Part shown: positions 1,711-11,190 of the stretch, piece by piece
Layout: each line of letters begins with the position of its first letter
How positions within the stretch are numbered: the stretch's first letter is position 1
NCBI GenBank assembly: GCA_025924435.1
Contig: JAICIL010000106.1
Span: 1 to 12,683 of the forward strand
Direction: 5' to 3'
Length of the DNA stretch: 12,683 nt
DNA from: Chloroflexia bacterium
GTDB lineage: Bacteria; Chloroflexota; Chloroflexia; Thermomicrobiales; JALYUS01
Position numbers and translations under genes: made by a program
Notes under the pieces: model-generated
Told to the model about the DNA's origin: nothing
Database searches by the model: none
The model's input: the letters and a program-made list of their open reading frames with translations, nothing else

Positions 1711-1895
1711 CCCGCACCCCCTTCCGGCCGGTGGGGAAGGGGAGATTGAACCGCCAAGACGCCAAGAACGCCAAGCCGAGAGAAGAAAGGGGAAGGAAGA
1801 AGTTCTTCTCTTATTCCATCTTCTCCGCGTTCTCTTGGCGTTCTTGGCGTCTTGGCGGTTCGATTAAAGTCCATAGATGAGCGTTCGATGGCCAT
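1704..1895 (-). CDS. Upstream ORF overlapping the ABC-F start (63 aa)
   Basis: The ATG at 1895 is preceded by a very good SD (GGAGGAG at 1911-1905, 9-nt spacing). It encodes MAIERSSMDFNR, then reads straight through palindromic element A, whose arms give a low-complexity Thr/Pro/Arg/Lys-rich stretch and later GVLGVLAV. It ends with TGA at 1706-1704, overlapping the ABC-F start codon (1710) by 7 nt. Such overlap fits translational coupling: a ribosome finishing here would melt the hairpin that hides the ABC-F SD. The peptide itself is probably not a functional protein. The first 11 codons may be an older leader peptide into which the palindrome was inserted. Confidence 0.35.
   Translation of the reverse strand: MAIERSSMDFNRTAKTPRTPRERGEDGIREELLPSPFFSRLGVLGVLAVQSPLPHRPEGGAGC
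1718..1742 (-). repeat. C/G-rich hairpin covering the ABC-F SD
   Basis: CCCCTTCC (1718-1725) and GGAAGGGG (1735-1742) form an 8-bp stem with a 9-nt loop. On the mRNA (minus strand) the 3' arm is the GGAAGGGG that serves as the SD for the ATG at 1710, so folding would hide it. The same C/T then G/A pattern recurs at 12495-12613, which marks it as one of the short dispersed GC-rich hairpins common in many high-GC genomes. Confidence 0.6.
1748..1861. repeat. Palindromic element A (114 bp, 28-bp perfect arms)
   Basis: Arms 1748-1775 and 1834-1861 are perfect 28-nt inverted repeats enclosing 58 nt. Each arm is GAAC followed by tandem units: CGCCAAGA, CGCCAAGAA, CGCCAAG. The enclosed DNA is purine-rich on the left and pyrimidine-rich on the right, with GAAGAA next to TTCTTC at its centre (about 1796-1809), so nearly the whole element can fold as one hairpin. 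It has no ORF of its own. It lies 38 nt upstream of the ABC-F start, between two minus-strand genes. It shares size and plan with elements B and C. Confidence 0.92.
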
Positions 1896-1942
1896 GATGG
1901 ATTGCTCCTCCGTGATGGCAGGAGCAGGCACACGCGCGAAGC

Positions 1943-1960
1943 CCGCGCCGCTCGGCGCGG
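1943..1960 (-). other. Second GC-rich hairpin in the ABC-F leader
   Basis: CCGCGCC (1943-1949) and GGCGCGG (1954-1960) form a 7-bp, all-GC stem with a GCTC loop. It lies between the two leader ORFs. No T-run follows on either strand. Confidence 0.45.
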
Positions 1961-1980
1961 TGGCGGTGTGCGTGGTTCCC

Positions 1981-2015
1981 GCCGCGTACCCGATGCACCG
2001 GATGGGTTACGCGGC
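1981..2015 (-). other. Strong hairpin in the ABC-F leader
   Basis: GCCGCGT (1981-1987) pairs with ACGCGGC (2009-2015), and ACCC (1988-1991) with GGGT (2004-2007). There is one bulged base at 2008 and a 12-nt loop. This 11-bp stem overlaps the stop codon of the preceding short ORF. No T-tract follows, so it is not a simple intrinsic terminator. Confidence 0.5.
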
Positions 2016-2084
2016 GAACCAGTCTGATCGGGCGCCCTTCCACGAGCGCCAGTGGCGTTCAGCAACAATTTGCGGCACGGTCAC
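2007..2084 (-). CDS. Possible leader peptide of the ABC-F gene (25 or 23 aa)
   Basis: Short ORF starting at GTG 2084 or, with better SD spacing (GGAGG at 2092-2088, 9 nt), at GTG 2078. It ends at TAA 2009-2007. The sequence reads (V)TVPQIVAERHW..., ending SDWFAA. It matches no family I know. What makes it notable is that its stop codon lies inside the 5' arm of a strong hairpin (2015-1981), so a ribosome finishing or stalling on this ORF would disrupt that hairpin. It could be chance: ORFs of this length are common in GC-rich DNA. Confidence 0.3.
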   Translation of the reverse strand: MTVPQIVAERHWRSWKGARSDWFAA

Positions 2085-2099
2085 TTTCCTCCGGTACGT

Positions 2100-2128
2100 A
2101 TCCTACACCGCGCCATGCCGCGCCGCAA
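2100..2128 (-). promoter_or_regulatory. Putative sigma70-type promoter of the ABC-F leader
   Basis: On the minus strand there is TTGCGG (2128-2123), a 17-nt spacer and TAGGAT (2105-2100). It begins 4 nt after the GH25-like stop codon. The predicted transcript start near 2093 puts the first SD (GGAGG, 2092-2088) almost at the 5' end, which is tight and is the main weakness of this call. Confidence 0.4.
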
Positions 2129-2131
2129 GGA

Positions 2132-2890
2132 TCAGCAGGTGTAATTGCCGTCGTAGCCGTCGTCGTCGTACTGCACGAGGTAGACGGAGCCGCCGGTGAA
2201 CGCCGCGTCGCAGAGCGATTTCGCGTCCTCCTTGCTCCCGCCGCCGACCCAGGCGGGCAGGCCGACCTGCCATCCGCCGGTGATCTCCTGCCACATCGCC
2301 GCCGTCGAGTAGATGCCGACGGCGAAACCATGCTCCACCAGCAGGTACTGCAACGCGCCCTTGATGACTGCCTGATTGCGCGACAGGTCGGTCTCCGACC
2401 ACGAGTTCAACGTCTCGATGTCCAGCCACCACATCCGCGTGGCGAAGGCCGGGGCCTGCTGCGCCGCGTAGGTGTAGGCGCTGGAGGCCGCGTTGTAGCC
2501 GTAGTTCAGCGCGTGGCACGGGTCATCGGGGCCGCACGTCCCGTAGGGGCCGGTGTCGCCGTAGAGGGCGGTCACGCCGATATCCTCGTTGAGATTCAGG
2601 TAGACGGACTCCGGCGAGAGGGTGTGGACGGCCCAGGCGTATTCGCTGGCGAAGCAGGGGTTATTGCGGAAGGCGTGGCCGTTGGTGACGCCGACCATCC
2701 CGAAGGTATAGGCGTTGAGCGTCGGGTAATCGAAGCCGCATTGCGGGAAGGAGATGTCGTAGCCGCTGGAGGTGCCCGTGTAGATGCCCTGCGCCGTGGC
2801 GCCCATCGCCGCGGTCGCGAGCAAACAGAGGGCGATCAAGGCCGCCGCTATTCGCTTGATGAGCCAAAGCCGCAGCGCCATGTTCCTCAT
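2132..2890 (-). CDS. Secreted GH25-like (lysozyme-type TIM-barrel) protein
   Basis: 252 residues with a clear signal peptide: basic start (MRNMALRLWLIKR), hydrophobic core at 14-30 and likely cleavage around ATA-Q (33-34). The mature part resembles glycoside hydrolase family 25, which cuts the peptidoglycan glycan backbone. GYDIS (43-47) matches the GxDxS strand-1 motif, WWLDIET (154-160) carries the Asp-x-Glu pair (D157, E159) typical of GH25, and GIYST (192-196) and LPAWVG (211-216) match later strands. Six cysteines (51, 79, 119, 125, 227, 252) suggest disulfides in an exported protein; the last residue is a Cys. There is no cell-wall-binding repeat. The start could instead be ATG 2881 (residue 4), which has better SD spacing (GGGGA). 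GH25-like is likely; activity and substrate are unproven. Confidence 0.75.
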   Translation of the reverse strand: MRNMALRLWLIKRIAAALIALCLLATAAMGATAQGIYTGTSSGYDISFPQCGFDYPTLNAYTFGMVGVTNGHAFRNNPCFASEYAWAVHTLSPESVYLNLNEDIGVTALYGDTGPYGTCGPDDPCHALNYGYNAASSAYTYAAQQAPAFATRMWWLDIETLNSWSETDLSRNQAVIKGALQYLLVEHGFAVGIYSTAAMWQEITGGWQVGLPAWVGGGSKEDAKSLCDAAFTGGSVYLVQYDDDGYDGNYTC

Positions 2891-2930
2891 TCCCCATTGC
2901 GCCGAGGCGCGCTCATTCGCATCGAAGATG

Positions 2931-2960
2931 AGTGTAGGGGATGGCCGGAGGGCGCGTCAA
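2931..2960 (-). promoter_or_regulatory. Putative sigma70-type promoter of the GH25-like gene
   Basis: On the minus strand TTGACG (2960-2955), an 18-nt spacer and TACACT (2936-2931). The predicted start near 2924 gives a leader of 35-45 nt. It lies in the 246-bp divergent region shared with sucC. I found no equally good promoter for sucC on the plus strand. Confidence 0.55.
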
Positions 2961-3136
2961 CGCGATGCGCCAATGGTATTCCGATGCGGTGCGTCGGTTC
3001 TGTCTGCGGTGACCGAACCGGTCGGCATCGCGATCGTCCCTCTCCCGCACTCCCCGATAGACGCCCGCCCGCCGCGCGTGCGAGAATGGCCGGGCGCCAA
3101 CGGCGGCGCCTCGCACCATCCGGAGGGGGGTTCGGC

Positions 3137-4279
3137 GTGAATATCCACGAATATCAGGCGGCGGACATCCTCGCCCGCTACGGCATCCCGCTCAACGCCG
3201 GGCAGGCGGCCACGACGCCCGATGAGGCGGCGGCGGCGGCGCAGGCGCTCGGCGGCACGGTCGCCATCAAGGCGCAGGTCCATTCGGGCGGGCGCGGCAA
3301 GGCGGGCGGCATCAAACTGGCGAAATCGCCGGACGAGGCGCGCGACGTGGCGGGCCGCATCCTCGGCATGGATATTCGCGGCCACACCGTCAACACCGTC
3401 CTCGTCGTCCCCGGCGTCGGCATCGCCGCCGAATACTACGTCGGCATCACGCTCGACCGTGCGAACCGCCGGATCATCGTGATGGCCTCCGCCGAGGGCG
3501 GCGTGGAGATCGAGGAGGTGGCGCGGACGAACCCGGAGGCGATCCTCCGCACGCCCGTTGACCCGGTGCGCGGGCTGCTCCACTACCGCGCGGTGGACCT
3601 CGCCTTCGCGCTCGGCATCGAACCCGCCGCCGTCGCGGGCTTCGTGGATGTCGTCACGAAAATGGCGCGCGCCTACCTCGACGAGGACGCCTCGCTCGTC
3701 GAGATCAATCCGCTGATCCGCACCGACGACGGCCGCTGGCTGGCGCTCGACTCCAAGATGGTGCTGGACGACAACGCCCTCTTTCGCCACCCGTCGCACG
3801 AGACGCTGCGCGACATGGCGGAGGAGAACGCGACCGAACTGACCGCGAAGGCGTCCGGCATCTCGTTCGTCAAACTGGACGGGAATGTCGGCTGCATCGT
3901 CAACGGCGCGGGGTTGGCGATGGCGACGATGGATGCCCTGCAAGTCGAGGGCGGCGAACCGGCCAATTTCCTCGATGTCGGCGGCGGCGCGAACGCGGCG
4001 CAGGTCGCGAAGGCGCTCAGCTTGATCCTCGCCGACCCGAATGTGAAGGCGATCTTCTTCAACATCTTCGGCGGCATCACGCGCGGCGATGAGGTGGCGA
4101 AGGGGCTGCTCGCGGGGCTGGAGCAGGTGCCGACGACACTGCCGATCATCGTCCGCCTCGCGGGCGTGAACGCGGAGGAAGGGCGGCGCATCCTCGCCAC
4201 GACGAACCTGCGGTCGGCGGAGACGATGGAGGAAGCGGCGCGGCTCGCGGTCGCGGCGGCGAAGGGGGAAGAGGCGTGA
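3137..4279 (+). CDS. sucC: Succinyl-CoA synthetase (ADP-forming) beta subunit
   Basis: 380 residues; E. coli SucC has 388. With SucD it interconverts succinyl-CoA and succinate with formation of a nucleoside triphosphate, in the TCA cycle (cytoplasm). Landmarks: N-terminal [10 protein letters not shown]-grasp residues [14 protein letters not shown] (45-58), [15 protein letters not shown], the C-terminal domain [11 protein letters not shown] (from 256), FLDVGGGAN (from 278) and [10 protein letters not shown]. Start GTG 3137 is fixed by a strong SD (GGAGGGGGG, 3122-3130) and by alignment to the family's N-terminus. A longer in-frame extension upstream is an artefact of GC-rich DNA. The stop overlaps the sucD start by 4 nt. 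Confidence 0.97.
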
Positions 4280-5151
4280 GCATTCTCGTCAACAGCGATA
4301 CGCGCGTGCTCGTGCAGGGCATCACGGGGCAGCAAGGTTCCTTCCACACCGGCCAGATGGTCGAATACGGCACGAAGGTCGTCGCGGGCACGCGGCCCGG
4401 CGGCAGGGGGCGCGAGGTCCACGGCGTGCCGGTTTTCAACACCGTCGCGGAGGCGATGCGGGAGACGGGCGCGAACACGAGCATCATCTACGTCCCCGCC
4501 GGCGCCGCACCGGACGCGATCGAGGAGGCCGTCGCGGCGGGCCTGCCGCTCGTCGTCTGCATCACCGAGGGCGTCGCGGTCAACGACATGGTGCGCACGT
4601 ACGAGGTCGTCCGGCGCTCCGGCTCGCGGCTGATCGGCCCGAACTGCCCCGGCCTCATCACCCCCGGCGAGGCGAAAGTCGGCATCATGCCCGGCTTCAT
4701 CCACGCGCGGGGGAGGATCGGCCTCGTCTCGCGCTCCGGCACGCTCACGTACGAAGTCGCCAACGCGCTGACGCAGGCGGGCCTCGGCCAGAGCAGCGCC
4801 GTCGGCATCGGCGGCGACCCGGTGATCAGCACCTCGTTCGTGGATGTCCTGACGCTCTTCGAGGCGGACCCGGAGACGGATGCCGTCGTGATGATCGGCG
4901 AGATCGGCGGCACGGACGAGGAAGTGGCGGCCCGCTACGTCCAGGAGCACATGAAAAAACCCGTCGTCGGCTTCATCGCCGGGCAGTCCGCCCCTCCCGG
5001 CAAGCGGATGGGCCACGCGGGGGCGATCATCTCCGGCGGCGCGGGCACGGCGGCGGAGAAGATGGCCGCCCTCGAAGCGGCGGGCATCCGCGTCGCCCGC
5101 CGCCCCGGCGATGTCGCGGGCCTCGTTAAGCAGGCAATTGGCACGGCGTAG
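4276..5151 (+). CDS. sucD: Succinyl-CoA synthetase alpha subunit
   Basis: 291 residues, full length. CoA-binding Rossmann motif GITGQQG (15-21), GPNCPG (121-126), SRSGTLTYE (152-160), the GEIGG segment (208-212) and the active-site histidine in [10 protein letters not shown] (H247, which is phosphorylated in the reaction cycle). The GTG start overlaps the sucC stop (GTGA), a standard translationally coupled pair that keeps subunits at 1:1. The second gene relies on coupling rather than a strong SD of its own. Confidence 0.97.
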
Positions 5152-5158
5152 GGCGACA

Positions 5159-5199
5159 AAACCGGAGCGCAGAAGACGCAGAGATCACAGAGGAAAAGA
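5159..5199 (+). repeat. Solo arm of the palindromic element family (element D)
   Basis: After AACCGGAG come 9-nt units CGCAGAAGA, CGCAGAGAT and CACAGAGGA. This is the same AACC start and C-R-C-x-R-A-G-R unit plan as the arms of elements A-C, but I see no complementary arm downstream. It lies 7 nt after sucD and before the SD of the DUF6883 gene, again between co-directional genes. It may be a decayed or half element. Confidence 0.6.
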
Positions 5200-5233
5200 C
5201 GCTTGATGCGGTGATACACTGAGGGAATGAGCG

Positions 5234-5584
5234 ATGTATCTGCCGGACGCGGAGCATGCAACAATCGCGCCCGAAAAAATTACAGCATATTTGCTCGTTC
5301 CTGAACATCGCGACAATAGGGGAAAGGCAGCATTCTTTTTTCGATACGGCTTCACGATGGATGCATGGGAAATGCTCGCGGTGGCACTCGTCACACATGG
5401 CGGAGCACATCCGATCACCGCTACTCGCCAGCGTCCAGATGGTATGCTCTACGGGGTGACGGGTGATATGGCGATGCCGGATGGTCGTGTGCGTCGCGTG
5501 CTGACGGCATGGTTCATCCCGAACGAAGGCGGCGCCCCGCGTTTTTGTGACCGCGTATCCGGCATAGGAGGGCAGCGACAATGA
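5234..5584 (+). CDS. DUF6883 family protein
   Basis: 116 residues, cytoplasmic, no signal peptide. The pattern [50 protein letters not shown], then [23 protein letters not shown] and a Pro-Arg-Phe ending fits the DUF6883 family (uncharacterised; as I recall also seen as a C-terminal domain of phage-head and toxin-like proteins). SD GAGGG (5221-5225) lies 8 nt before ATG 5234. The stop overlaps the next start (ATGA), so the pair is made together. The gene is visibly less GC-rich than sucCD, which suggests separate acquisition. Biochemical function is unknown. Confidence 0.75.
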
Positions 5585-5880
5585 TCGAAGAACTGGATAC
5601 GGTCGAATTGCTCACACCGCTGCCGGAAGCGAATCTTGCGGCGGGGCGGCGCGGCGCGGTTGTCTTGGTGTACGGCAATCATGAAGCATACGAGGTTGAG
5701 TTCTACAATGCCGATTGGGAATGGACGCCAGATATGGATGTGCCCTATCCTGCTGTCCTGGCGACTGTCACATCAGACAATGTGCGGCTCGTGCATCGGC
5801 ATCACGCATCGGCGACCGCCGGAGCCATTGATCGTTTCTCCTCCCGCAATTCTGCTGATTCGCCGGTCAGCCACTCATAG
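5581..5880 (+). CDS. DUF4926 family protein
   Basis: 99 residues. ELDTVELLTPLPEANLAAGRRGAVVLVYGNHEAYEVEFYNADWEW..., then VLATVTSDNVRLV (residues 4-76) matches DUF4926: a small beta-rich fold with the 'G.VV.VY.....EVEF' core. ATG 5581 has SD GGAGGG (5567-5572) 8 nt upstream and overlaps the DUF6883 stop by 4 nt. DUF4926 is usually about 65-80 residues; here a Ser/Ala-rich tail of about 20 residues follows. My recollection is that DUF6883 and DUF4926 genes are frequent neighbours, which suggests a two-component unit such as toxin-antitoxin, but this is unproven. Confidence 0.75.
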   Translation: MIEELDTVELLTPLPEANLAAGRRGAVVLVYGNHEAYEVEFYNADWEWTPDMDVPYPAVLATVTSDNVRLVHRHHASATAGAIDRFSSRNSADSPVSHS

Positions 5881-5930
5881 CCGCTGCTCCCCGTATTGTT
5901 TTCATGATGAGAAAATGGAAAGAAGACCTC

Positions 5931-7055
5931 ATGACGGCACAGAAACCCCGCCTGCGTGATCTCGGTATTACGATCGGCACGCAGCCGACGGGCGTGTACA
6001 ACGCGATCACGGATGTGCCCGGCGTGCGTGTCGGGTATGCGACGGTCGTGCAGGGCGACGGGCCGCTGCGCGTCGGTGAGGGGCCGGCGCGGACGGGCGT
6101 GACGGCGATTCATCCGCACGAAGGCTCGGTCTTTCAGCAGATGATCCCCGCCTCCATCGCCGTCCTCAATGGCGCGGGCGAGATCACGGGCCGCTCGCAG
6201 GTGGACGAATACGGCCTGATCGAGACGCCCATCCTCATCACGAACACGCTCTCCGTCGGCGCGGTCCACAAGGGGTGCGTCGAGTGGCTGACGGTGCACG
6301 AGCCGTCGCTCGGCACGCGCGATTTCGTCATCCCCGTCGTCGCGGAAACGTTCGACGGCTTCCTCAACGATGTCGCCGGGCAGCATGTGGCGAGCGCGCA
6401 CGTCTTCGCCGCGCTCGACAACGCGGCGGGCGGCCCGGTGGCGGAGGGAAACGTCGGCGGCGGCACGGGGATGACGCTCTTCCGCTTCAAGGGCGGCACC
6501 GGCACCGCCTCGCGCGTCGTGCCGGTCGGCGGGCGGGAGTATACCGTCGGCGTGCTCGTGCAGGGCAACTTCGGCAGGCGCGAGGATTTGCTCGTGGATG
6601 GCGTGCCCGTCGGGCTGGAAATCACCGATCTCATGCCGGAGCAGGGCGCGACGCCGGACGAGAAGCGGGACGGCTCGATCATCGTCGCGATCGGCACCGA
6701 CGCGCCGCTGACCGACCGGCAGTTGGGCCGCCTCTGTCGCCGGGGGATGCTCGGCCTCGGTCGCGTCGGCTCGACGGCGACGCACAGTTCGGGCGACCTC
6801 CTCATCGCCTTCTCGAACGCGCCGGAGAACCGCGTGGACCGCTTCGAGACGGCGACGCTGCTGACGCAGACCTTCATCAACGACACACAACTCAACGACC
6901 TCTTCCAGGCGACCATCGAGGCGACCACCGAAGCGGTGCTCAATGCCCTCGTCGCGGCGGAGACGATGACGGGCCGGGACGGCAACACCGCCCACGCCCT
7001 CCCGCACGACCGTCTGCGCGCGATCATGCGAAAATACGGCCGCCTCCGGGCATGA
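5931..7055 (+). CDS. DmpA/P1-family self-processing aminopeptidase (peptidase family S58)
   Basis: 374 residues, almost exactly the length of Ochrobactrum DmpA (375). N-terminal nucleophile hydrolase that removes N-terminal D- or L- (or beta-) amino acids after cutting itself into two chains. Family marks: LRDLGI..G..PTG.YNAITDVPGVRVGYATV, EGNVGGGTGM, VQGNFG (with the conserved Asn), and DGSIIVAIGTDAPLT, where Gly248-Ser249 is the expected self-cleavage site and Ser249 the nucleophile (DmpA: Gly249-Ser250). ATG 5931 is preferred because it restores family length. Two in-frame ATGs at 5904 and 5907 would add 9 or 8 residues but lack an SD. No signal peptide, so cytoplasmic. It lies 50 nt after the DUF4926 gene. 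Substrate is unknown. Confidence 0.93.
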   Translation: MTAQKPRLRDLGITIGTQPTGVYNAITDVPGVRVGYATVVQGDGPLRVGEGPARTGVTAIHPHEGSVFQQMIPASIAVLNGAGEITGRSQVDEYGLIETPILITNTLSVGAVHKGCVEWLTVHEPSLGTRDFVIPVVAETFDGFLNDVAGQHVASAHVFAALDNAAGGPVAEGNVGGGTGMTLFRFKGGTGTASRVVPVGGREYTVGVLVQGNFGRREDLLVDGVPVGLEITDLMPEQGATPDEKRDGSIIVAIGTDAPLTDRQLGRLCRRGMLGLGRVGSTATHSSGDLLIAFSNAPENRVDRFETATLLTQTFINDTQLNDLFQATIEATTEAVLNALVAAETMTGRDGNTAHALPHDRLRAIMRKYGRLRA

Positions 7056-7058
7056 CGA

Positions 7059-7088
7059 GGCGCCGGGGATCGCGGACTGCCCGGCGCC
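7059..7088. terminator. Hairpin at a convergent gene junction, possible bidirectional terminator
   Basis: GGCGCCGGG (7059-7067) and CCCGGCGCC (7080-7088) form a perfect 9-bp GC stem with a 12-nt loop, 3 nt after the peptidase stop codon. No T-run follows on either strand, so it may end transcripts only with help from other factors or protect 3' ends. Its position between convergent genes supports the role. Confidence 0.45.
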
Positions 7089-7095
7089 GATGCTG

Positions 7096-7120
7096 CCAGC
7101 CGCGGATTTACTGCGGCTGG
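7096..7120. terminator. Second hairpin at the convergent junction
   Basis: CCAGCCGC (7096-7103) and GCGGCTGG (7113-7120) form a perfect 8-bp stem with loop GGATTTACT. The loop contains the stop codon of the minus-strand gene (7110-7108), so the stem overlaps its last codons. It lies 7 nt from the preceding hairpin, giving two tandem stems in about 60 bp. Confidence 0.4.
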
Positions 7121-7419
7121 CCCGCACCCATCGCCTGGAGCGCCTCGATGTAGTGCTGGAGCGCCACATCGCCATCCAGGATCGGGTAGATTTCGGACTT
7201 GCTGAAGGCGGCGAGGGGCCATTCCGTCATCATTTTGTTCAGCGCCGCCTCATCGGGGACGTTGAAGACCCCGCCGCCGCCGGGGACCCCGGCGAAGAAG
7301 AAAAAGGATTCCATGTTCCCCTTGTACTTCTCCCGCCAGCCCGCGAACCCCTGGAAGAGTTGCAAGGCGGCTTCCGGCGGAATCGGATGCTCGCTTCGGG
7401 TGATGAGCAAGACGCGCAT
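7108..7419 (-). CDS. Small muconolactone-isomerase-like (ferredoxin-fold) protein
   Basis: 103 residues, cytoplasmic. MRVLLITRSEHPIPPE then FFFFAGVPGGGGVFNVPDEAALNKMMTEWPLAAFSKSEIYPILDGD resembles muconolactone delta-isomerase and related small dimeric alpha/beta barrel proteins (compare 'SVFDVPS.EAL...L..LPLFPYM.IEV'). Enzyme identity is not secure; it may be one of the many non-catalytic or uncharacterised relatives. ATG 7419 has a good SD (GGGAGAG, 5 nt away on the minus strand). It follows the LLM oxidoreductase on the same strand, separated by 137 nt. Confidence 0.6.
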   Translation of the reverse strand: MRVLLITRSEHPIPPEAALQLFQGFAGWREKYKGNMESFFFFAGVPGGGGVFNVPDEAALNKMMTEWPLAAFSKSEIYPILDGDVALQHYIEALQAMGAGQPQ

Positions 7420-7465
7420 GAGTTCTCTCCCGACGATGACAGCGAATATTCCTCACGAGAGAGGA

Positions 7466-7479
7466 CGCATGCGCATGCG
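7466..7479. promoter_or_regulatory. 14-bp perfect palindrome upstream of the small isomerase-like gene
   Basis: CGCATGCGCATGCG is self-complementary and consists of overlapping CGCATGCG palindromes. It lies 47 nt upstream of the ATG at 7419 in the gap between two minus-strand genes. A dyad there could be an operator, but no clear -35/-10 pair is visible. Rest of the gap (7420-7556): nothing recognised. Confidence 0.25.
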
Positions 7480-7556
7480 GAATAGATTGCTCATTGCCGA
7501 TATCGCCGCAAAATTGCTATGAGATCGGCGACATTGGATGAATGCGATGCGTTGGG

Positions 7557-8555
7557 CTACCGGCGCAGGGCGGGCAGGACCTGCTCGCCGAGCAGTTGGA
7601 TGCCGCGCGCGTCGGTCAGGCCGTGCGGCGTGCCGAACTCGATGCGCGACGCACCCGCCGCGAAGATCGCTTCGGCGTGCGCAATCACCTCCGCCGGCGT
7701 TCCCGCGAAGGCGAAGGCGCGCAGTAGATCGTCGGAGATCAGCGCGGCGGCGGACTGCCGGTCGCCCCGTTGCACGGCACGCTCCATCCGCTCCAGCAGT
7801 TCGGGTTCCACCGAGAGCGTCGGGTCGAGTCCCGCGACGGTGGGCAGATAGAGCGCGACTTCCTCCTTCGCGCGTCGCCGCGCCGCCGCGCCGTCCTCAT
7901 CCACGACCGTCACCGCGCCGAGCACGATGCCGGCCGCGTCCGCGTCCCGCCCCGCTCGCCGCGCGCCGACGGCGATCCGCCCGCGCATGACGGCGACCAT
8001 CGCCGGATTGACGCAGCCGCCGATCTTCACCTCGTCCGCGATTTCCCCCGCGAGCGCGGCCAGGCGCGGCCCCCACGTCCCGATCATCAGCGGCACAGCG
8101 GCGCGCGCCACCTCGTAGTGGAGGACATTGTGCGCGCTCAGGTGGAAGATCGCGCCGTCGAATGGCGCGCGCTCCTGCGCGAGCAGATGGCGGACGACCG
8201 CGACCGCCTCCCGCATCGTCGCGACGGGTTTCGTCTGGGCGATGCCGAGCGAATCGAGCCACGCCCCGCGCGCGAGGCCGAGATAGGCGCGACCGCCGGA
8301 GACGGCGTCGAGGAGGGCAATCTGCCCCGCGATCTCGACGGGATGCAGCGTGTACGGGTTCATGGTCGCCGGGCCGAGCCGGATGCGCGCCGTCGCCCCC
8401 GCCATGATGAGGAGCGGCCCGATCGGCGGCTGGAACATCAAATCCCCGTAGACACTGAGCGCGTCGAAGCCGTATTCCTCCACCCGCCGCGCCAGCGCCG
8501 CGTACGCCGCCGCCCCCTTATCGCTCTGAAACGCCACACTCACTTCCCGCCGCAT
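7557..8555 (-). CDS. LLM-class flavin-dependent oxidoreductase (luciferase-like, F420- or FMN-dependent)
   Basis: 332 residues, a full-length single-domain luciferase-like TIM barrel. Marks: YAALARRVEEYGFDALSVYGD (17-37), LGPATMNPYTLHPVEIAGQIALLDAVSGGRAYLGLARGAWL, MREAVAVVRHLL, a strand/turn PLMIGTWGPRLAALAGEIADEVKIGG as in methylene-H4MPT-reductase-like members, and a C-terminal AFAGTPAEVIAHAEAIFAAGASRIEFGTPHG. The family binds F420 or FMN in the barrel; which one, and the substrate, cannot be read from the sequence. Start ATG 8555 has SD AAAAGGAG (8570-8563) with 7-nt spacing. Palindromic element B ends at 8571, touching that SD. Confidence 0.9.
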   Translation of the reverse strand: MRREVSVAFQSDKGAAAYAALARRVEEYGFDALSVYGDLMFQPPIGPLLIMAGATARIRLGPATMNPYTLHPVEIAGQIALLDAVSGGRAYLGLARGAWLDSLGIAQTKPVATMREAVAVVRHLLAQERAPFDGAIFHLSAHNVLHYEVARAAVPLMIGTWGPRLAALAGEIADEVKIGGCVNPAMVAVMRGRIAVGARRAGRDADAAGIVLGAVTVVDEDGAAARRRAKEEVALYLPTVAGLDPTLSVEPELLERMERAVQRGDRQSAAALISDDLLRAFAFAGTPAEVIAHAEAIFAAGASRIEFGTPHGLTDARGIQLLGEQVLPALRR

Positions 8556-8570
8556 TCAGGGACTCCTTTT

Positions 8571-8690
8571 GAACCGCGAAGGCGCGAAGGGCGCGAAGAA
8601 GAGAGGAGAGCAAGATGATATGAAGGATCGCCGTAGCTCTCCCATTTCTTCCTCCTTCCGTTCTTCGCGCCCTTCGCGCCTTCGCGGTTC
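8571..8690. repeat. Palindromic element B (120 bp, 30-bp perfect arms)
   Basis: Arms 8571-8600 and 8661-8690 are perfect 30-nt inverted repeats around 60 nt. Each arm is GAAC followed by units CGCGAAGG, CGCGAAGGG, CGCGAAGAA. Pairing continues inside with GGAGAGC (8605-8611) against GCTCTCC (8636-8642), leaving an apical loop of 24 nt. It fills the gap between two minus-strand genes: it starts 7 nt after the TIGR04076 stop codon and ends right at the SD of the LLM oxidoreductase. It has no ORF of its own. The arm matches element A in 22 of 28 columns, and every difference recurs in each unit and in the opposite arm. Confidence 0.93.
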
Positions 8691-8697
8691 AGATTCC

Positions 8698-10562: not shown

Positions 10563-11126
10563 ATGTCTTTCTGGGCGGGGATGCGCTATTGCCCGAAGTG
10601 CGGGACGCGCTTCGGGGCGGGCGGCTTCGAGCGGACGATGTTTCCGACGTGCGACGCGTGCGGGTTCGTCTTTTTTCGCGGCCCGTCACTTGCGAGCGGC
10701 TGCATGGTCGTCGAAAACGGGCGATTGTTGCTGGCGAAGCGCGGCATCGAACCCTATGCCGACTCGTGGTACGTCCCTTCCGGCTTCGTGGATTACGGCG
10801 AGACGCCGGAAGCGGCCGCCGTGCGCGAACTGGCGGAGGAGACGGGACTCACGGCGCGCATTCTCGGTTTGTATGATCTCCTCGCCTGGCACGACGACCC
10901 GCGCAAGGACGGCGTGATGCTCTTCTACCGGGCGGAACGGGTCGCGGGCGAGGCGAAAGCGGGCGACGACGCGCGGGCGGTCGGCTGGTTCGCGCCGGAC
11001 GAACTGCCGGAAAATATCGCCTTCGCGGTCCATCGCGCGGCGATCCACCGCTGGCAGTTGGAGGAAACCAATTTCACCACAGAGACACAGAGAGCACAGG
11101 GGACGCAGAGAGAAAGACGAACATGA
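10563..11126 (+). CDS. Nudix hydrolase with N-terminal zinc ribbon; C-terminal 16 codons supplied by a palindromic repeat
   Basis: 187 residues. A four-cysteine zinc ribbon (C10, C13, C30, C33; RYCPKCGTRF and TCDACGF) precedes a complete Nudix box: G74, E80, R88-E89, E92-E93, G95 (GFVDYGETPEAAAVRELAEETGL pattern, GX5EX7REUXEEXGU). Nudix enzymes cleave nucleoside diphosphates linked to other groups. The ribbon recalls NudC (NADH pyrophosphatase), but the NudC SQPWPFP motif after the box is absent (GLYDLLAWHDD instead), so the substrate is open. The SD GGGGAG is 5 nt before ATG 10563. Residues 172-187 (TTETQRAQ...RRT) are encoded by the left arm of element C, so the original stop has been replaced by repeat-derived codons. 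Confidence 0.9.
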   Translation: MSFWAGMRYCPKCGTRFGAGGFERTMFPTCDACGFVFFRGPSLASGCMVVENGRLLLAKRGIEPYADSWYVPSGFVDYGETPEAAAVRELAEETGLTARILGLYDLLAWHDDPRKDGVMLFYRAERVAGEAKAGDDARAVGWFAPDELPENIAFAVHRAAIHRWQLEETNFTTETQRAQGTQRERRT

Positions 11127-11190
11127 ATGGGAAACAGTCCAGATAATCCCTCTGATCGTTCTCTGTGCTCTCTCTGTGTCTCTGTGGTTC
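11076..11190. repeat. Palindromic element C (about 115 bp, imperfect arms)
   Basis: ACC plus units CACAGAGA... on the left (11076-11094) is exactly complementary over 19 nt to 11170-11188. Pairing resumes after a 2-nt insertion in the right arm (CACAG 11095-11099 against 11163-11167) and continues weakly inward. The unit is CACAGAGA(G), again C-R-C-x-R-A-G-R. Its length is nearly the same as elements A and B. The left arm runs into the Nudix gene and encodes its tail. The right arm ends 4 nt before the SD (GGGAGG, 11195-11200) of the HicB-like gene. Both flanking genes are on the plus strand. Confidence 0.88.

Follow-up and report, generated by a model that had tools for sequence, protein, structure and literature searches.

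The three palindromic elements A, B and C in a 12,683-nt stretch of Chloroflexia DNA (GenBank assembly GCA_025924435.1, contig JAICIL010000106.1; this whole stretch is the window) are members of an interspersed bacterial hairpin repeat family in which each arm is an array of an 8–9 nt word. A first-pass annotation, made from the letters of the window, had noticed that the units of an arm change together and in both arms; this unit pattern is widespread, and within genomes it is strongest at two purines of the word, that is, at its second and fifth bases (R2 and R5). Its occurrence across several phyla points to a shared recognition code or to a process that produces an entire arm in a single event. 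The explanation that we tentatively favour, with a little short of an even chance of being right, is that copies arise with homogeneous arms and are then held by selection on a word that is read repeatedly, with the fourth base (N4) and the linker between words drifting.

A hairpin repeat family in several phyla

The arm plan is ACC-RCNRAGR-CRCNRAGR(N)-CRCNRAG, in which the word is C-R-C-N-R-A-G plus a linker purine; the bases of the word are referred to as C1, R2, C3, N4, R5, A6 and G7. In the window, 21 20-mers have an inverted partner no more than 150 nt away, and there are none in each of 20 mononucleotide shuffles; these inverted repeats are not chance. The arms of element A extend to 31 nt (1745–1775 and 1834–1864) at 97% complementarity, the inner 28 nt being perfect, and the outer arms of element C are perfect over 19 nt (11076–11094 and 11170–11188), after which the register shifts by 2 nt (element B and all feature coordinates are in Table 1). 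As the annotation had reported, the arms of A and B differ in 6 of 28 columns and the differences are mirrored in both arms: columns 8, 16 and 25 change from C to G and columns 12, 20 and 21 from A to G, that is, at like unit positions, the fourth base of each unit and the linker after AAG. The assignment of element C to the same unit plan holds for its two CACAGAG units; its third left unit is degenerate and its register is shifted.

We searched with a strict pattern, ACCRCNRAGRCRCNRAGRN{0,2}CRCNRAG, and used the pattern read backwards as control; the control gave no match in any genome table searched. The first 18 genomes include three with strict matches, from Verrucomicrobiota (G006, 87 matches), Acidobacteria (G011, 25) and Latescibacterota (G010, 8). 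By phylum, the plan occurs in 49 of 301 genomes of Chloroflexota (G210 is the densest, with 301 arm matches), 18 of 115 of Verrucomicrobiota and 28 of 200 of Pseudomonadota; it occurs in none of 151 genomes of an archaeal phylum (that of a Bathyarchaeota metagenome-assembled genome, MAG), and the nearest relative of the window found, a Chloroflexia MAG in which one protein is 66% identical, is without a strict match. At least 120 stretches in IMG/VR, of viral or host DNA, carry the plan. The arm A 26-mer that starts at ACC is present exactly in one genome of Verrucomicrobiota (G334). With the plan common to Chloroflexota, Verrucomicrobiota, Pseudomonadota and others, the question of its reader becomes testable.

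The family consists of inverted doublets of short repeats in high copy number, and many lone arms are also present. Among the matches listed, the unit spacing is mostly 8 then 9 in G006, G011, G210 and the window, and 8 then 8 in G187 and many Pseudomonadota. Mosaic families, each with its own consensus, occur within single genomes (e.g., G090 and G036). The annotation had proposed a process that rewrites whole arms, and would have taken unrelated families with no intermediates as a refutation; whole-arm switching exists and recurs (12 of the 16 possible CRCNRAG words were found as fully homogeneous three-unit arms in all the loci examined, and CACGGAG and CGCCGAG arms are both found in G187), and mosaics are common. 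Of 143 element clusters, 52 lie inside a crudely called open reading frame (ORF), the rest between ORFs or at contig edges.

Agreement between units and between arms

Concert among the units of an arm was judged against a null in which unit columns were shuffled among elements within a genome. The sets comprised 86 of 87 arms in G006, 22 of 25 in G011, 100 of 301 in G210 (those listed) and 50 of 97 in G187; for 11 further genomes we used the distinct arms among the matches listed (e.g., 17 in G600, where 20 of 126 were listed). Units agree at R5 in G006 (z 11.1) and at R2 in G210 (z 9.1), and N4 is not concerted in either genome. Pooled, the 11 further genomes give z values of 8.7 for R2, 8.6 for R5 and 1.7 for N4, and single genomes vary; G011 has no concert, with little variation there. 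For G187 the values are 10.2 for R2 and 9.2 for N4, or 3.5 and 1.7 when distinct arms only are counted. The 149 distinct arms from IMG/VR, in which many genomes are mixed, are concerted at all three positions (z 15.8, 11.9 and 15.8). The homogeneity of units within elements, for which the annotation had proposed a test, is a feature of most of the other genomes, not of all.

The G210 arms separate the positions of the word most clearly. Between units, R2 shares 0.165–0.24 bits of information with R2, and unlike positions share at most 0.048 bits. R2 is nearly two-state: of 67 elements, 9 have five or six G (0.3 expected) and 27 have none (11.3 expected), and the per-element counts for N4 and the linker are near binomial. 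Local composition is an unsupported and unlikely cause of the R2 concert, because R2 is uncorrelated with linker G (rho 0.10) and only weakly, and negatively, correlated with flank GC (rho −0.22, p 0.07).

Identical arms are not general in the family: they are found in 1 of 79 pairs in G210 (0 of 67 in a narrower set), 7 of 23 in G187, 1 of 53 from other loci and 2 of 3 in the window. In G210, the two arms agree in R2 beyond shuffling (z 5.3) and do not in N4 (1.3) or the linker (−0.9); the agreement in R2 is 0.726 out of register vs 0.741 in register. Agreement between arms is also found for N4 in G187 (z 4.4) and R5 in G006 (z 3.2). When both arms are pure in R2 and R5, they share a type in 114 of 122 pairs; the eight pairs of unlike type include one (L501) in which a CGC-GAG arm is joined to a CAC-AAG arm. 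Arm copying would make all positions agree in register, and slippage or repeated templating would make all positions agree across units; neither fits G210, where agreement over the whole element is confined to R2 (R5 hardly varies). As the only continuing cause, iterative templating or slippage is disfavoured, N4 and the linker being unconcerted within most genomes tested; at the birth of a copy, it is allowed by the near-perfect copies.

The annotation had suggested, among other possibilities, that template switching across the hairpin rewrites arms, and had added that it knew of no described mechanism; the latter was too strong, because replication template switching that fixes stem pairing across hairpins is described in the accessible part of PMC8794818. 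We consider it quite improbable that such switching, or conversion between copies, keeps rewriting the arms. The perfect arms of A and B are what it predicts, and arm–arm agreement exceeds that of shuffles for all units in G187 and partly in G006 and G210. Some G187 elements also have palindromic flanks of 12–19 nt, which at first looked like proof of arm copying; these flanks are themselves shared repeat modules. With ongoing rewriting, the single identical pair among 79 in G210, the lack of arm concordance of N4 and the linker there, and the eight pairs with arms of different type are hard to reconcile. The G187 modules (L194–L228) are of two kinds, up to about 70 nt long, carry CGTC/GACG, and stand outside the arms in varied combinations, as if half-elements had been shuffled.

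In the loci pooled without G210 and G187, units are alike, N4 included, in 13 of 14 pairs with at least 95% arm identity, and the share with alike units is 32 of 40 and then 32 of 79 as arm identity falls. We take arm identity as an approximate measure of age, with recent copies homogeneous and R2 and R5 kept longest in older ones. The same gradient belongs to another explanation, which we regard as somewhat unlikely, that is, a non-autonomous repeat similar to repetitive extragenic palindromic (REP) sequences or miniature inverted-repeat transposable elements (MITEs) is moved by an unknown transposase, and the concert is a record of homogeneous masters with no later selection on the word. The high copy number, the mosaic families of distinct consensus in G090 and G036, and the greater homogeneity of near-perfect-armed copies all suit amplification of this kind, as do the two plain subfamilies of G187, with flank modules common to several copies, and one site (L140:13327) that is almost cleanly empty in G323. 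Amplification alone fits poorly with G210, in which R2 is alike over units and arms and N4 and the linker are near random, and with the slow change of the fixed bases described next.

Change at orthologous sites and the favoured explanation

G319 is a close relative of G210 (83–94% identity in the longer matches). From a set of 71 G210 elements, the queries were 22 of 23 elements (one containing N was left out) and about the first 28 of 46. For 22 sites both flanks were found in one G319 locus; the element is present in both genomes at 16 of these, and 6 are without it or unclear. In the 16 shared elements, the fixed bases C1, C3, A6 and G7 changed at 14 of 375 positions (3.7%) and the free ones at 85 of 377 (22.5%; p 3e-15), a roughly 6-fold difference in rate. 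The free changes divide into 27 of 93 at R2, 19 of 95 at N4, 35 of 94 in the linker and 4 of 95 at R5, which is slow here; loops changed at 89 of 291 positions, and the adjacent 20 nt at 102 of 576 with a further 64 gapped. In four elements with conserved loops, where the numbers are small, the changes are 3 of 96 at fixed bases, 2 of 24 at R2, 3 of 24 at N4 and 4 of 16 in the linker.

These comparisons also bear on ongoing rewriting. The arms of the 16 orthologs have 50 changes on the left and 56 on the right, of which only 6 are mirrored; as the annotation itself had held that independent mutation of arms among strains would speak against rewriting, the G210/G319 changes count against it. 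The few mirrored changes sit in elements with several R2 changes, and clustering of changes by element is found for R2 (p 0.012) and not for N4 (0.33) or the linker (0.23). Template switching is supported by two elements, L260:5325 and L266:4197, where multiple R2 units changed in the left as well as the right arm. At L260:5325, CAC became CGC in five of six units as aligned (six by eye, the aligner having misplaced a gap), and the loop differs at 14 of 23 positions; replacement by another copy fits this site as well as an in-place switch, because the loop differs too. No target-site duplication was resolved, either at the 22 orthologous sites (6 without the element or unclear) or at the near-clean empty site in G323. 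The latter is a single case, and it suggests tentatively that elements insert between the outer ACC and the GGT.

On the explanation that we favour, a new copy would start out with arms homogeneous for one word type, having been copied from an arm of that kind, and arrays could also grow in tandem, as is directly visible in G334 of Verrucomicrobiota, where a 32-nt unit built on the arm is repeated about 10 times (L494:396–722). The copy would later be held by selection on the word, which would be read repeatedly. The most likely reader would be a DNA-binding protein, oligomeric or with repeat domains, that makes contact with C1, C3, A6 and G7 and tells A from G at the second and fifth positions; on this simplest account, one reader would read the same word six times, with C1, C3, A6 and G7 required, R2 and R5 read, and N4 and the linker free to drift. 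Under such a two-letter purine code, the types of element should follow the variants of a single protein family, and position classes that behave differently provide a clean case in which to separate arm rewriting from shared recognition.

Several observations weigh against this explanation. Neither a binding protein nor a mobiliser was found for the elements. The homogeneity of near-perfect copies may reflect nothing more than a small number of homogeneous masters, or limited diversity in a genome; it is weaker than in the pooled loci both in G187, where N4 is alike in 75% of the arms of the 16 pairs at or above 95% arm identity, and in G210 (67%, 3 pairs). R2 is not concerted in the listed arms of G431, G540, G580 and G588, partly because it hardly varies there. 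In G187, unlike positions are associated between units as strongly as like ones (0.41–0.76 bits), and for that reason two plain subfamilies explain this genome. Both the window and G187 show concert at N4; therefore, a code of R2 and R5 only is not universal. Loop GC in G210 is weakly correlated with R2 (rho 0.25, p 0.045). The G210 arms were picked by the plan, and this choice may have concealed as many as about half the changes at fixed sites; since it can no more than roughly halve the fixed count, the gap between fixed and free bases stands. Finally, most of the genomes are draft or MAG assemblies.

A more radical form of shared recognition, which we judge unlikely, is a horizontally spread system that both reads and writes words, in which a protein or an enzyme with a short internal template would build or copy each arm as iterations of its own word. 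Such a system would recognise a word of seven bases, two of which are each a choice between A and G, and CAC-AAG, CAC-GAG, CGC-AAG and CGC-GAG would be its variants; several of these unit types do occur together in single genomes. If real, it would be a mobile or genome-marking system new to description.

The window elements and known repeat systems

Table 1. Features of the repeat family in the window. MFE, minimum free energy of the predicted RNA fold; z, RNA folding compared with shuffles.
Feature	Position	Strand	Description
Element A, left arm	1748–1775	+	GAACC then three CGCCAAG, spacing 8 and 9
Element A, right arm	1834–1861	−	Inverted copy of the left arm
Element A, inner stem and loop	1776–1833		Left purine-rich, right pyrimidine-rich; MFE −81.4, z −11.1
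Degenerate lone half-array	about 5158–5196	+	CGCAGAAG, CGCAGAGA, CACAGAG
Element B, left arm	8570–8600	+	Three CGCGAAG; 31 nt perfect (100% complementary)
Element B, right arm	8661–8691	−	31 nt perfect
Element B, inner part	8601–8660		MFE −85.1, z −10.2
Element C, left arm	11076–11101	+	CACAGAG, CACAGAG, degenerate third unit; 1 mismatch to plan
Element C, right arm	11163–11188	−	Extra 2 nt (register shift); 2 mismatches to plan
Element C, inner part	11102–11162		MFE −61.4, z −7.8

The lone half-array folds no better as RNA than its shuffles (z 0.26). Genes can come to contain arms: a putative NUDIX-like frame terminates in element C, whose left arm and inner part make up the last 16 codons of the frame (11076–11126, ...TTETQRAQGTQRERRT), and the insertion of element C seems to have given this frame a new tail. 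In G512 (L498), a tandem duplication of about 165 nt contains an arm; by eye, the duplicated DNA looks coding and the arm is apparently read in frame. Other arrangements were seen as well: the tandem array of G334 adjoins a 232-nt tandem duplication; half-arms stand head-to-tail with a period of about 39–40 nt in G234 (L056); and G210 has another repeat family, of about 140 bp (L136:17271–17410), with at least 14 further copies at 85–92% identity.

The very stable predicted folds suggest a transcribed RNA hairpin, that is, a terminator or a 3′ stabiliser of mRNA, which we nevertheless consider very improbable. Of 79 elements in G210, 17 have TTTT no more than 8 nt beyond an arm, as do 14 of 53 from other loci, and random 10-nt windows contain TTTT or AAAA in 1 of 395 (G210) and 19 of 265 cases (other loci); AT-rich intergenic DNA may explain part of this excess, because the background windows are mostly coding. 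TTTT is found in none of the 23 G187 elements and none of the three in the window. The gaps that hold G210 elements are 27 tandem, 12 convergent and 11 divergent (17 pairs were skipped, and ORF calling was crude), so divergent gaps, which an intrinsic terminator should avoid, are not avoided (11 of 50 vs 27 of 129 in the background). RNA wobble is unsupported, since mismatches in the sense transcript are not biased toward G-U (30 G-U vs 51 A-C), and Rfam covariance models at the gathering score gave no matches in the window.

We give scant credence to a REPIN-like element moved by a RAYT, or Y1 tyrosine transposase. Y1 domains are found in 55 of 64 element-positive vs 44 of 66 negative genomes (p 0.013), and in a first set of genomes matches at 77–94 bits (L110–L133), a band that was picked after seeing the list, occur in 16 of 43 positive vs 3 of 37 negative genomes (p 0.003). 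This enrichment was not repeated in a second set (4 of 21 vs 3 of 29, p 0.43), and 9 of the 64 positive genomes have no Y1 match, including G047 and G147, with 52 and 53 arm matches. We read 65 Y1 loci, 44 of them from positive genomes, in batches of 35 (2 mismatches allowed; L132 and L134 are from element-negative genomes) and 30 (3 allowed), with L113 and L116 being one place. One of the 65 had an arm in the stretch read, about 2 kb from the Y1 gene; membership of the REPINs fails because arms do not flank Y1 genes.

In MITEs, inverted terminal arms enclose a mobile-looking element of about 60–225 bp, and the elements described here are similar in this respect. They differ from MITEs in that their arms are often imperfect and no target duplication was resolved; a parental transposon with these ends was not noticed in the loci read, no systematic search having been made. 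A Nostoc plasmid (L493:2970–3075) has a half-arm within a GGACTTACGCA...TGCGTAAGTCC palindrome that is MITE-like in look.

The open-licence literature, as far as its accessible text goes, contained no description of the family or of its unit words; most subscription papers lie outside that search, and this absence is weak evidence of novelty. The Nostoc repeated sequences, LTRR among them, do not look like these elements in the accessible part of PMC2408588, and no similar repeat was noticed in that of the RepRanger REP paper (PMC12306157).

Template-switch mutation at quasipalindromes, as described in the accessible parts of PMC8794818, PMC8604942 and PMC7202029, can likewise make hairpin arms identical in one event; in contrast to what is needed here, it leaves the likeness of units within an arm and the out-of-register coordination of R2 and R5 unexplained. 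REP sequences and REPINs (accessible parts of PMC3116915 and PMC2817692) are also short palindromes with many copies per genome, hairpins of inverted doublets and mosaic variants; unlike them, the elements described here have arms that are iterated 8–9 nt words, no RAYT alongside and, in G210, no depletion between divergent genes. The REPs tagged with GTAG or CGTC and the TIRYT-associated TIR repeats share with our family a cross-phylum distribution of palindromic repeats, and CGTC REPs also occur without a dedicated transposase (both from the accessible part of PMC3733652). The present elements differ from these REPs in having no regular tag outside the arms, apart from the CGTC/GACG of the G187 flank module. 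Within 12 nt outside the arms, in either orientation, the counts of GTAG and CGTC are 12 and 2 on the 158 sides scored in G210, 1 and 3 on 106 from other loci, none of either on the 6 of the window, and 1 and 21 on 46 in G187, the last from the flank module. In G600 (L499), arms of unlike unit type flank a CGTCATGCCGG... palindrome that resembles a CGTC-tagged REP, the whole being duplicated in tandem; here the arms flank a CGTC-starting palindrome rather than being one, unlike the CGTC REPs.

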